Shown in pieces: positions 44,134 through 53,512 of a DNA stretch of 64,000 bases; the first letter of the stretch is position 1; every line of letters begins with the position of its first letter. The stretch comes from Luteimonas kalidii. GTDB lineage: Bacteria; Pseudomonadota; Gammaproteobacteria; Xanthomonadales; Xanthomonadaceae. The stretch is taken from assembly GCF_029887935.1 (NCBI RefSeq), contig NZ_JARXRO010000007.1:1-64000 (forward strand), in the 5' to 3' direction. Position numbers and translations under genes: made by a program. The notes beneath the pieces were generated by a model. It did no database searches. It saw nothing but the letters and a program-made list of their open reading frames with translations, and was not told the origin of the DNA.

Positions 44134-50507
<6,374 letters not shown>

Positions 50508-50533
50508 GCAGGCGATTCTTTTGCGGGGGCCGT

Positions 50534-50548
50534 GGCGACGGCGTCGCC
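50534..50548. repeat. Hairpin in the spacer between the parE tails
   Basis: GGCGAC pairs with GTCGCC around a three-base loop, in the 67-base spacer that separates the real parE end from its duplicate. It parallels the hairpins found in the nlpD spacer, though the sequences differ. Confidence 0.4.
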
Positions 50549-50574
50549 GTCATTGCGGCGGATGGCATCGGGCA

Positions 50575-50617
50575 GCGCGGCTGGAACAGAAGGGCGACCT
50601 GGCGACGCTGGAGGTCT
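50575..50617 (+). repeat. Second copy of the parE 3' end
   Basis: These 43 bases match 50463-50505 at 40 positions. In the parE frame they read RLEQKGDLATLEV and then TGA, where parE reads WLEQKGDLATLEV and then TAG. The GAT/GAC and GAA/GAG differences are silent; the single replacement is at the copy's edge. There is no start codon and no upstream gene. As with nlpD, it looks like the end of a diverged allele. Confidence 0.85.
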
Positions 50618-50662
50618 GAGCTCCCGGGATTGCCTGTACGTCGCGACCGGATGGGCCTCGCC

Positions 50663-50755
50663 GCGACCGGGAGGCCTCCGCGGCGAATGTCCCCCGGCTT
50701 CCGCCTGGAGGCGGAAGCCTCCTCCTTGATTTCGCCGCAAAGGCCTCCCGATCGC
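50663..50755. repeat. Structured element A (conserved internal loop)
   Basis: A long imperfect hairpin: outer stem 50663-50677 with 50741-50755 (one mismatch), a CC/AA mismatch and an 8-bp stem GCGGCGAA/TTCGCCGC. An internal loop of TGTCCCCC opposite TCCTCCTTGAT follows, then a 10-bp inner stem GGCTTCCGCC/GGCGGAAGCC with loop TGGA. Compared with element B in reverse orientation the internal loop is identical while the stems differ with full compensation. That pattern points to selection on structure. The family is unknown to me. Confidence 0.75.
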
Positions 50756-50831
50756 AGCGCGGCTCGGCTGACGGCCGGTCCCGGAAATGCGCGCGACTTT
50801 GGTGCTTCGCCCCAGAACCAGCGCGATCCTG

Positions 50832-50853
50832 GGCACGTCGGATGCGGGGGTGC
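50832..50853. repeat. Copy 1 of a 22-bp direct repeat
   Basis: These 22 bases (GGCACGTCGGATGCGGGGGT followed by GC) are repeated exactly at 51010-51031, where they run into the left side of element B. Here no element follows. Confidence 0.8.
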
Positions 50854-51009
50854 GCACACCTCCAGCCATCCCACCGTCCCCTGCTCGATGCGGCGCAAAA
50901 GACATGCATTCGTCCTGCTCCGACGCCAACGCACTAATGCGTGTCCTCCGGAGAACCCACTCGCAGGGCCAGTACCTATACCCCCCTTCCTTGAACCCCC
51001 GCGGATTCA

Positions 51010-51031
51010 GGCACGTCGGATGCGGGGGTGC
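51010..51031. repeat. Copy 2 of a 22-bp direct repeat
   Basis: Exact second copy of 50832-50853. Its last four bases overlap the outer stem of element B, so it may be part of the larger repeat family. Confidence 0.8.
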
Positions 51032-51100
51032 CCGGGGACGAAATCAAGGAGGAGGCGACGCCCTGCAGGGCGTCGCCGGGGGACATTCGTCACCGGGCGC
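51028..51100. repeat. Structured element B (conserved internal loop)
   Basis: Outer stem with one G/A mismatch (CCCGG and GACGAA on the left, TTCGTC and CCGGG on the right). Internal loop ATCAAGGAGGA opposite GGGGGACA, then a 10-bp inner stem GGCGACGCCC/GGGCGTCGCC with loop TGCA. It is the inverted counterpart of element A: the loop bases are identical, and the stems are different but paired. The loop contains AAGGAGG, a perfect Shine-Dalgarno complement. No gene starts after it, so that may be coincidental. Confidence 0.75.
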
Positions 51101-51247
51101 GCCCGTAGCCGGCGTCACCGCGTACCGACCCGATCGCTGCGGCGTTGCAGCGCTTGATCCGTCCACGCACAAACGGGTCACAACAAGACCGATGCTCGAA
51201 GGCGATCGAACTACGGCTCCGCTCCGGGCACCGCGCGAAGACTCGAC

Positions 51248-53353
51248 TCAGTCCGCGGCGACCGCCCGCCACCGCAGCACGGTCCCGTCCTTGCGGTCGG
51301 GCCGCGGGCCGGGCCGGTCGGCGGCATAGGGTTCGCCGCTCTCGGGCAGGATGCCGAGATAGCGGTTCGTCTTCAGCGACAGCAGCATGAACTCGCCGCG
51401 CATCAGGTCCTGCCACAGGAACAGGCTGGCGTCGGATTCTGGCAGCAGTCGCACGTCGGCCGACAGTCCGATGCCGACCACGGTCAGGAAGCCGCTGCCG
51501 TCCATCGCCTCCAGCGCCACCCGGCCGCGGCCGCGGTCGTGCACGCGGAAGCGCCCGCCCGCCTCGCCCGCCTCCTTCGTGTCGGCGGCCACCGGCTGCA
51601 GCACGCCCAGCGGATGCACGCGCGCCACCGTGTCGTCGCCGAGGTTGTGCAGCGCGACCACCTGCCCCAGCGGCAGGTTGCGCGAGCGGTCCGCCAGCGG
51701 CTCGTCCACGCGGAAGTCGTCGAAGTCGGCGTGGCCGCCATCGCGGCCGTCCGCGTTGTAGGCGAACAGCGCGTAACGCGTGCCCTGGAAGGTCTTGAGC
51801 TGGTAGGGCAGCCGCACCGGTTCGCCGATATCGGTGAAGCGCTCGCCATCCGCGCTCCAGGAGAATTGCGCCAGGTCCTCGTCGTAGTCGCCCGCCACGC
51901 GCAGGAAGAGTTGCGGCGAGACCAGCGGCAGGTCGACATGGCGGTCGCCGAGCTGCGAATGCCAGCGCAGCGTCGCGCGCTCATCGCCCTGCACCACGCC
52001 CAGCCATGCAGCGGGCATGTTGAGCAGGCCGAGACCGGCGATGTCGCCGGCTACGAGTCCCGATACGTCGACGCGGACGGTCGCGGTGGACAGCGGCCCG
52101 ATCACGCGCTGGGTCAGCGTGTTGCGTGCCCACAGGAAGTCGTCGGCCGGCGAGGCGTGCAGCCGCAACGCGTCCGGCCGCTCATCGAGCGACCAGCGCC
52201 CGGCCAGCGGCGCATGGTTCCACTGCCACACCGGCTGGAGGGTGGGCGCGGAGAAATCGTCGCTGCGCGCGTAGGTCGCGTGCGGCGCGGTGCCGGCGCC
52301 TACGTCGGGCTTGAACCAGGTGCGCGGCGAGCGGCCCAGGTTGCCGGGCAGTCCGAAGTAGGGCCAGCCTTCGTACCAGGTCACCGGCGAGAGGTAGGTG
52401 GTGCGGCCGATCGACTTGACGTCCATCATCGAGAAGCCCCACCAGCTGCCGTCCGGCGCCTGCACGATCCCGCCCTGGTGCAGCGGCACCGCGCCCAGCG
52501 CGTTGTCGCCCGGCTTGTGCATCGAGAACGCGGTGGTGCCGTTGGGCACCGGCGTGCGCTGGCCGACGCCGTCTTCCCACCAGCCGCGCTGCGTGCCCAT
52601 GGTCTCGCTGGCACTGATCGCCACCGTTTCCCATGGCCCGTCGAGCGAGTCCGCGCGCGCCGCCTGCATCCGCCCTACCGGCGCGTAGTTGGCGCTGATG
52701 ATGTAGTAGCGTCCGTCCACCTTGTAGAAGTGGTGGCCCTCGCCCATGCCGCTGCCGGCCGGGATGATCACCCGCTCGCTGCCGTCGACCACCCCGCTCA
52801 GGTCCGGTTTCAGCTCGACCAGGCGCACTTCGTTGTAGTTGAACACCGCCCACACGCGGTCGTCGTCGTCGAACAGCACTGACAGATCGTGCAGGTTGCG
52901 CTCGATCACCGAATGCGTCCACGGACCGGCGGCATCGGTGGCGGTGAACACGTGCAGCCCGCGCTGGTTGATGTTGGCGAAGATGTGGAAGCGGCCGTTG
53001 TGGTGGCGCAGGCTCGGCGCCCAGATGCCCTGCCCGTACAGGTCGCGGCCCTGTTCGAGCCGGTACTCGGGGCCCGGCGGGAAGTCCGCCATCGCATAGG
53101 AGACGAATTCCCAGTTCACCAGGTCGCGCGAGCGCAGCACCGGCAGGCCGGGCACCGCGTGCATGGTGGTGCCGGTCATGTAGAACCAGTCGCCGACGCG
53201 GATCAGGTCGGGGTCGGAGAACTCGTCGTGGAACAGCGGGTTGGTGTAGGTGCCGTTGCCGTTGTCGGCCATCCATGTGGGGGCGCGCGGGCCGGAGGCG
53301 TGGACGGTTCCGAGCGCGAACAGCAGGACCAGCCAGAAAACACATGCTCGCAT
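51248..53353 (-). CDS. Exported GH43 glycosidase (arabinofuranosidase/xylosidase type)
   Basis: A 701-residue secreted enzyme with a signal peptide (VFWLVLLFALGTVHASG). The five-bladed GH43 propeller holds the base Asp47 in FSDPDLIRVG, the modulating Asp156 in HDLSVLFDDD and the acid Glu205 in GMGEGHHFY. A concanavalin-like C-terminal domain follows (DDFSAPTLQPVWQWNH near residue 357 to DFRVDEP near 567). A last module of about 130 residues of unclear type closes the chain. GH43 enzymes of this form cleave xylosides or alpha-L-arabinofuranosides. It lies at the end of the furanose transporter and arabinose-type catabolic cluster, so an arabinose-containing substrate is likely. Confidence 0.88.
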   Translation of the reverse strand: MRACVFWLVLLFALGTVHASGPRAPTWMADNGNGTYTNPLFHDEFSDPDLIRVGDWFYMTGTTMHAVPGLPVLRSRDLVNWEFVSYAMADFPPGPEYRLEQGRDLYGQGIWAPSLRHHNGRFHIFANINQRGLHVFTATDAAGPWTHSVIERNLHDLSVLFDDDDRVWAVFNYNEVRLVELKPDLSGVVDGSERVIIPAGSGMGEGHHFYKVDGRYYIISANYAPVGRMQAARADSLDGPWETVAISASETMGTQRGWWEDGVGQRTPVPNGTTAFSMHKPGDNALGAVPLHQGGIVQAPDGSWWGFSMMDVKSIGRTTYLSPVTWYEGWPYFGLPGNLGRSPRTWFKPDVGAGTAPHATYARSDDFSAPTLQPVWQWNHAPLAGRWSLDERPDALRLHASPADDFLWARNTLTQRVIGPLSTATVRVDVSGLVAGDIAGLGLLNMPAAWLGVVQGDERATLRWHSQLGDRHVDLPLVSPQLFLRVAGDYDEDLAQFSWSADGERFTDIGEPVRLPYQLKTFQGTRYALFAYNADGRDGGHADFDDFRVDEPLADRSRNLPLGQVVALHNLGDDTVARVHPLGVLQPVAADTKEAGEAGGRFRVHDRGRGRVALEAMDGSGFLTVVGIGLSADVRLLPESDASLFLWQDLMRGEFMLLSLKTNRYLGILPESGEPYAADRPGPRPDRKDGTVLRWRAVAAD

Positions 53354-53512
53354 CAGCGCAACTCCTTCAACGTGCCGGACGACGCGCGTCGGGCCGACTC
53401 GCCTGTCCCGCACACCAGGCGACCACCAGCCGTCACGTGCGTCCGTCACGAACCGGTGTCAGGCACGCATCCCAGACCCGGCCTGCAGACGAGCGCACGT
53501 CCCGGCGCGCGC

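Follow-up and report, generated by a model that had tools for sequence, protein, structure and literature searches.

Mirror-paired hairpins between convergent genes of Luteimonas kalidii: a probable decayed copy of a gene-less mobile repeat with a conserved purine-rich loop

The DNA analysed here (the window) is a stretch of 64,000 nucleotides from Luteimonas kalidii, contig NZ_JARXRO010000007.1, and the locus of interest lies between two of its genes. A gyrase-B-type topoisomerase gene (parE-like) on the + strand ends at 50507, a GH43 glycosidase gene occupies 51248-53449 on the - strand, and the two converge on a pair of hairpins, A and B. One terminator-like site, against 0.3 expected, lies within A in the reading direction of parE (50707-50722, tail TCCTTGATTT), and a scan of 50450-51300 found no promoter-like site. 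The last 43 nt of the parE-like gene (50463-50505) are duplicated 112 nt downstream, at 50575-50617, with 93% identity; by eye, a like piece is present in genome G028 (locus L047) and repeated pieces in G260 (L202).

The sequence-only reading had reported A (50663-50755, - strand) and B (51028-51100, + strand) as inverted, structured elements sharing an asymmetric internal loop between unlike but paired stems, and folding bears this out. The RNA z-scores are -8.4 for A and -6.0 for B, equal stability being reached in 0 of 200 shuffles, and the DNA z-scores lie between -5.5 and -7.2 for the four strands folded. Both hairpins extend slightly beyond the limits first reported, to ~50655-50763 and ~51018-51110; the 94-position covariance-model span places A at 50662-50756 on the - strand (97.8 bits, E 6.7e-18, own genome) and B at 51017-51111 on the + strand (83.9 bits, E 8.7e-15, own genome), with their 5' sides facing one another across a spacer at 50757-51016 (gap ~261). 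The loop is identical in the two, ATCAAGGAGGA opposite GGGGGACA (11+8 nt, purine-rich), and is closed by GAA/TTC on the outside and by a G-C pair on the inside. Its 5' and 3' sides lie at 50720-50730 and 50688-50695 in A (- strand) and at 51043-51053 and 51078-51085 in B (+ strand), and they enclose inner variable stem-loops at 50696-50719 and 51054-51077, respectively, which differ in sequence and yet pair fully. With one mismatch or none, ATCAAGGAGGA occurs at two sites in the window, those in A and B, where 0.23 would be expected; since two or more sites occur in 4 of 100 shuffles of the window, the word alone is only mildly unusual. It is the structure, together with copies elsewhere, that must carry the weight of the case, rather than the loop word.

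Copies elsewhere are numerous. In the window's own genome a strict pattern finds seven copies, a looser one nine, and the covariance model 16 hits that exceed 60 bits, with a further hit at 33 bits; the reversed pattern gave 0 matches in every genome listed of the family pattern search. Searching the genus with model R1 at E 1e-4, under stricter filters and with at most 81 candidates scored per genome, returned 3 to at least 80 copies in 18 of 52 genomes and none in 34, so that the expectation of many copies in related genomes is borne out. Copy-rich genomes include a congener, G284, with at least 80 model hits, G065 with 71 strict copies and a Polaromonas bin with 59. Across the window's family the strict pattern is present in 21 of 247 genomes and 7 of 54 genera, a count that misses some carriers (G071 has 0 strict matches vs 5 model hits). 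Model R1 at the same threshold finds 162 of 399 genomes in the family of a Polaromonas bin (G301), where scoring was limited to 10 candidates per genome, and 4 of 369 in a class sample, these being the window's own genome, two of its family and one outside it. Luteimonas, Stenotrophomonas, Thermomonas, Lysobacter and Pseudoxanthomonas are among the matches listed, as are Rhodoferax, Polaromonas, Ramlibacter, Hydrogenophaga, Variovorax and Pseudorhodoferax; the repeat is found in many bacteria related to Xanthomonas and to Comamonas. One contig binned as Clostridia (L106, 757-798) holds a member whose stems are AT-rich and whose loop is unchanged, reflecting either mis-binning or a distant member. 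Carriage by phage was considered and rejected, with 0 exact pattern matches in viral contigs.

The covariation of the stems is very strong. It was measured on 62 aligned copies out of 98 non-redundant hairpins with good outer pairing, in which 93.4% of pair cells hold standard pairs (61.1% in shuffles), 35 of 36 pairs are changed on both sides (shuffled mean 30.1; 1 of 500 shuffles reaches 35) and covariation scores 0.796, compared with 0.193 in shuffles (0 of 500 as high) and at most 0.148 when partners are slid; because these copies were picked by exact loop pattern and outer pairing, loop invariance is built into the set and pairing is favoured in it. Many stems of differing type are paired along most of their length. 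Constancy of the loop can be read instead from the covariance-model hits, in the best 150 of 171 of which ATCAAGGAGGA is exact in 122 and GGGGGACA in 139, with a model that itself still favours the consensus loop; the loop is near-constant, as had been proposed. Orthologous copies at the parE locus differ by compensated changes in place: the inner stem of B reads GGCGACG...CGTCGCC at L198 vs GGCAACG...CGTTGCC at L208, and that of A reads GGCTTCCGCC/GGCGGAAGCC in the window vs GGCCTGCGCC/GGCGCAGGCC at L208. Altered loops also occur at this locus, ATCAAGTAGGA and GGGGAACA at L208 and GGGGGATA at L198.

Where two hairpins lie close together they are almost always mirror images. Among neighbouring model hits within 1.5 kb, 50 of 52 have the '-+' arrangement of A and B, with 5' sides facing, and 2 are '--'; among neighbouring strict-pattern copies 30 of 31 are '-+' and one is '++'. 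The commonest gaps between partners are 55-61 nt (19 of 50). Lone copies occur as well, and in G065, by our own count, 44 of the 71 strict copies form 22 mirror pairs. This near-constant pairing, together with collinearity with the G284 unit, makes A and B two halves of one larger unit, in place of the two separate elements first proposed. More complex arrays were seen, one at L013 (874-1568), with three '-' hairpins at 192-nt intervals followed by one '+', and one in the window's genome (G000:C11:508972-509755), with one '-' followed by three '+' hairpins.

Units avoid genes and favour gene 3' ends. Predicted genes contain 3 of 173 strict copies, and the 109 intergenic gaps with an element comprise 47 convergent, 55 tandem and 7 divergent ones, compared with 14, 88 and 54 among 156 long gaps without an element; genes were called by a simple codon-usage finder, and these counts are approximate. 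The family consists of ~95-nt hairpins in mirror pairs; it is present in multiple copies, is patchily distributed among congeners and is enriched between convergent genes. Two long gaps in G065 (L154, L155) were considered as single units and rejected, since the ORFs inside them look by eye like ordinary chromosomal genes; they are taken as separate units. In a Hydrogenophaga bin, a mirror pair (L128, 1224-2379) surrounds a 269-aa ORF with a Trypsin_2 match just under the cut-off, located between proC-like and ubiA-like genes, which is possibly a captured cargo gene.

The window unit can be compared with those of G284. Hairpin A with ~23 nt of left flank (50639-50769, + strand) aligns collinearly to the G284 unit consensus at positions 65-195 (83% over 131 nt, E 2e-35), and the core of B (51039-51086, + strand) to positions 279-325 (85% over 48 nt). 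On the outer sides of the window unit no ISL3 end was found, the best candidates matching 9-10 of 14 positions, and consequently no target duplication can be placed for it. Homology to the G284 unit is argued from this collinear similarity, the outer ends being no longer recognisable. Within the spacer between A and B, the stretch 50801-50814 agrees with the ISL3 end consensus at 12 of 14 positions. At parE loci the unit is present in 5 of 30, the window's own included, and most neighbours are without it. Comparison of G162 with G028 reveals a clean absence at an empty site, with a 13-nt direct repeat at the occupied one, a configuration that gain and loss would explain alike; direct repeats of such length are no more frequent than by chance in the general test given below (2 of 87 units).

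Transposon-like anatomy is preserved in G284 and G065. Pairs in G065 combine a hairpin of type X with one of type Y inside a repeat of ~420 bp that has inverted ends (18 mirror-pair units aligned, 3 of them left out of the consensus). Searching G065 with the ends gave 89 sites, with facing pairs ~150-435 nt apart and many sites alone; no facing pair among the 89 has the length of a complete insertion sequence. Twenty copies fetched from G284 include 15 with both hairpins, two cut by contig ends and three without hairpin A. Both ends could be placed for 40 units (10 in G284 and 30 in G065, with two of the rows, L156 and L161, representing one segmental duplication); these measure 231-436 bp, most of them 390-436, and hold no transposase gene. 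Their flanking direct repeats average 4.3 nt vs 1.4 after re-pairing. Repeats of at least 6 nt flank 19 of the 40 (9 of 10 in G284, 10 of 30 in G065) vs 8.6% when re-paired, repeats of at least 8 nt flank 8 of the 40 vs 1.1%, and 11 units have none. Examples in A/T-runs are AAAAGGAA, TTATTTTC, AATGAAAA and TTTTTCTT, several of which lie, by eye, beside terminator-like hairpins, and the T-runs are outside the unit in both genomes. In both genomes, then, the majority of complete units measure ~390-436 bp; they have inverted repeats at their ends, and direct repeats of 6-9 bp, in A/T-runs, flank about half of them. A general target-duplication test on 87 units found direct repeats of at least 10 nt in two, as in controls; the duplication signal emerges only where unit ends can be placed.

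The ends point to a particular transposase family. ISL3 elements duplicate ~8 bp of target, and a search with PF01610, guided by the unit end sequence and the repeat length, found ~1.31-kb ISL3 elements with such ends in G269, G028 and G266, which are other members of the genus. The right end of the G284 consensus agrees with these elements at 22/22 (L375), 23/23 (L380) and 21/21 (L377) positions, and the left end at 23/24 (L375) and 21/24 (L377 and L380). The element at L375 is flanked by CAACTTTT repeats, and its 407-aa ORF has DDE_Tnp_ISL3 plus ISL3 HTH and zinc-ribbon domains. The G065 ends are of the same kind by an eye comparison. In a test of 129 other units, which covered loci before L355 and G284 only through loci from searches, end-like sequence was present on both sides of 17 (0 in shuffles) and not of the remaining 112; fifteen of the 17 belong to G065, and one each, both degenerate, to a Lysobacter (L097) and to G266 (L309). 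The PF01610 search gave no hit in G284 or G065 themselves, and ISL3 presence was discarded as a predictor of units, with strong hits (>100 bits) in 5 of the 19 genomes that carry units, in 2 of the 13 that do not, and no association. Nor was a recurrent transposase gene recognised beside the copies when 4,305 locus ORFs were compared all against all, a weak test that took the start of one member from each of the 25 largest clusters. In G269, ISL3 elements whose ends are of a second type adjoin hairpins of this family (L390, 1200-3305; L397, 1292-2772).

Units of Burkholderiales have other, compact ends, and none in the 129-unit test had ISL3-type ends on both sides; the hairpin payload may therefore predate the ISL3 link or be independent of it. 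In a Polaromonas bin, degenerate repeats resembling the outer arm and the ...GTACAAAA tail adjoin full units in the flanks of L282, L283 and L284, as if earlier copies had been replaced.

The loop itself contains a covarying position. For base 8 of the 5' side and base 3 of the 3' side, 327 unique hairpins comprise 302 with A-G, 13 with G-A, 7 with A-A, 5 with C-G and 0 with G-G, an association of Fisher p 1.5e-18 with the C-G rows excluded, among sequences that are related. Counted by eye among the 150 matches listed of a search allowing all four A/G combinations, A,G occurs 125 times, G,A 21, A,A three times and G,G once; the reversed-pattern control for this search gave one chance match among 56 genomes. 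The swap between A-G and G-A occurs with many inner and outer stems, in both Burkholderiales and Luteimonas-type units. A two-tetrad G-quadruplex in the loop (GG-A-GG / GG-G-GG) was considered, but a quadruplex alone does not explain why A-G and G-A outnumber A-A and G-G. The pattern fits a folded, non-canonical purine motif within each hairpin, on the purine-rich strand. A second non-canonical spot lies in the outer stem, where GCA faces GGA in 123 of 326 hairpins, chiefly of Burkholderiales as read from the rows. Literature word searches yielded no description that was recognised as this loop among the matches listed. We tentatively suggest, while doubting it somewhat, that this loop, in which GGAGG lies opposite GGGGG and the central A-G/G-A pair covaries, represents a new non-canonical motif and a portable recognition module, acquired separately by different mobile elements in two bacterial families and letting a host or element factor seize extruded or single-stranded DNA or act on a transcript.

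In light of this anatomy, A and B are probably the internal hairpin pair of a single decayed copy of a mobile twin-hairpin repeat, non-autonomous and gene-less, moved by ISL3 in the G284 and G065 lineages and carrying a folded recognition motif as its loop. In those lineages (some Xanthomonadaceae) the units would be moved by an ISL3 transposase that is provided in trans or has since disappeared, and their insertion into terminator T-tracts would account for their location at gene 3' ends; Burkholderiales units would have another mover. The internal loop would fold into a purine motif in which GGAGG lies opposite GGGGG around a central A-G pair, on the purine-rich strand, in extruded or single-stranded DNA or in RNA, and would be recognised by some putative factor, leaving the stem sequence free to drift as long as it stays paired.

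Conserved pairing between the two hairpins, rather than a motif within each, would be an alternative basis for loop constancy, in that the loop strands of inverted A and B are, by geometry, exact complements on one strand and close neighbours are nearly always mirror pairs. Such a kissing interaction is very improbable: of 110 pairs, 13 have one G-A hairpin and 0 have two, and by eye, among the four-combination matches listed, 16 pairs have one and a single pair (G297:C115) has two. The loop variants of partners are uncoupled, with counts about as independence predicts, and a swap that occurs within the hairpin while partners are uncoupled argues for a folded purine motif per hairpin and against loop-loop pairing. 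A more serious challenge concerns the stems. Template switching during replication can rewrite an arm of an imperfect palindrome so that it matches its partner, which would yield pairing without function, and the many stems of different types that pair along most of their length are consistent with this. Compensation alone is therefore no proof of selection on RNA, and the sequence-only reading, which took conserved loop plus covarying stems as a signature of selection on structure, was right about the covariation and is otherwise partly supported. That the compensated stems are wholly unselected is nevertheless rather doubtful, as template correction would erase the asymmetric loop, which persists in the model hits, and its covarying swap. 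The conserved asymmetric loop is thus a stronger argument for selection than the compensated stems. Template switching can act together with selection on the loop; it may help to keep the stems perfect, but cannot keep a non-complementary loop.

The mobile-repeat reading has also to be set against two others that concern what the element is. One makes it a relative of REPs and REPINs, moved by a single-strand Y1 transposase (RAYT) that recognises inverted hairpin doublets as single-stranded DNA. Doublets with a spacer, intergenic position and multiple copies all suit this, as do the compact ends of Burkholderiales units, with no duplication shown, and the distribution of Y1_Tnp hits (18 of 21 genomes with strict copies, 11 of 21 without, by a strict pattern that misses carriers such as G071). 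Yet three of the 21 carriers have no Y1_Tnp hit, 30 Y1_Tnp loci gave no convincing copy beyond a single hit of 25.7 bits, and the direct repeats at G284 and G065 unit ends do not fit. REP hairpins measure 20-40 nt, less than the 90-100 nt found here, and a RAYT origin is accordingly judged quite improbable. The other holds that the unit serves the host as RNA at the 3' ends of genes, whether as terminator, mRNA stabiliser or small RNA, and is selected on RNA structure. It finds its support in the enrichment between convergent genes, the terminator-like site in A, the compensated differences between orthologous parE-locus copies and, if the Beta-proteobacterial repeat element (BRE; Hot et al. 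2011, PMC3110155) is the same family, a ~80-nt transcript seen there by Northern blot. Patchiness among congeners and at parE loci, the clean absence in G162 relative to G028 and the empty promoter scan speak against it, and insertion at terminators, as in G284 and G065, would account for the location even if the units had no function. We regard a host RNA role as unlikely, and 'new structured RNA family', as initially proposed, is not the best frame for what is one unit of a non-autonomous mobile repeat.

Among known systems, the G284 units resemble ISL3 MITEs in being short, gene-less and multi-copy, in sharing their ends with complete ISL3 elements and in the 6-9-bp direct repeats at A/T-run targets, and the G065 units are alike, with the weaker repeat signal given above. 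They differ from such MITEs in their conserved twin-hairpin payload, which is present with other ends in Burkholderiales, and the window copy has no recognisable ends. REPINs and REPs with RAYT share the inverted, intergenic, multi-copy doublets around a spacer, but the hairpins here are much longer, the Y1_Tnp genes at the 30 loci are not flanked by the repeat, and the best-preserved units have direct repeats. ERIC, Correia/NEMIS and similar elements are imperfect palindromic intergenic repeats thought to be non-autonomous; by description the present family is likewise imperfect palindromic and intergenic, and to our knowledge a conserved asymmetric purine loop is not a feature of theirs.

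The view that the hairpins belong to no named family stands as far as Rfam is concerned. At gathering cut-offs there was no match in the window, ten other loci gave LSU and 5S rRNA only, and a permissive search gave hits far under the cut-offs (best 28.5 bits vs 268). For Betaproteobacteria that view may be wrong. BRE (PMC3110155) is 75-91 bp long with ~69% GC in Bordetella and mostly intergenic; a Polaromonas strain has 29 copies of it and a Delftia 13, and it is also found in Rhodoferax and Acidovorax. Its authors suspect mobility and leave function open. Compared by description, the hairpin family matches BRE in size, GC content and host range, and BRE may be its betaproteobacterial branch. 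Section 14 of that paper presents BRE as repeated in tandem and mentions neither a twin layout nor a loop nor any connection to transposons. BRE is the nearest published candidate among those found. With no Rfam match and BRE as the nearest candidate by description, we therefore regard the family as a miniature mobile repeat whose structured payload is unusual.

Many such repeats between genes carry no annotation, and the anatomy described here connects one of these families, over part of its range, with a family of transposases and with a target, namely A/T-runs at terminators. Should BRE belong to the family, this would also suggest an origin for a repeat whose function was left open. The findings also carry a warning, in that what is usually taken as the mark of a structured RNA, compensated stems around a constant loop, can be a property of mobile DNA. 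The strongly conserved non-canonical loop poses a precise question: what binds it, in DNA or in RNA.
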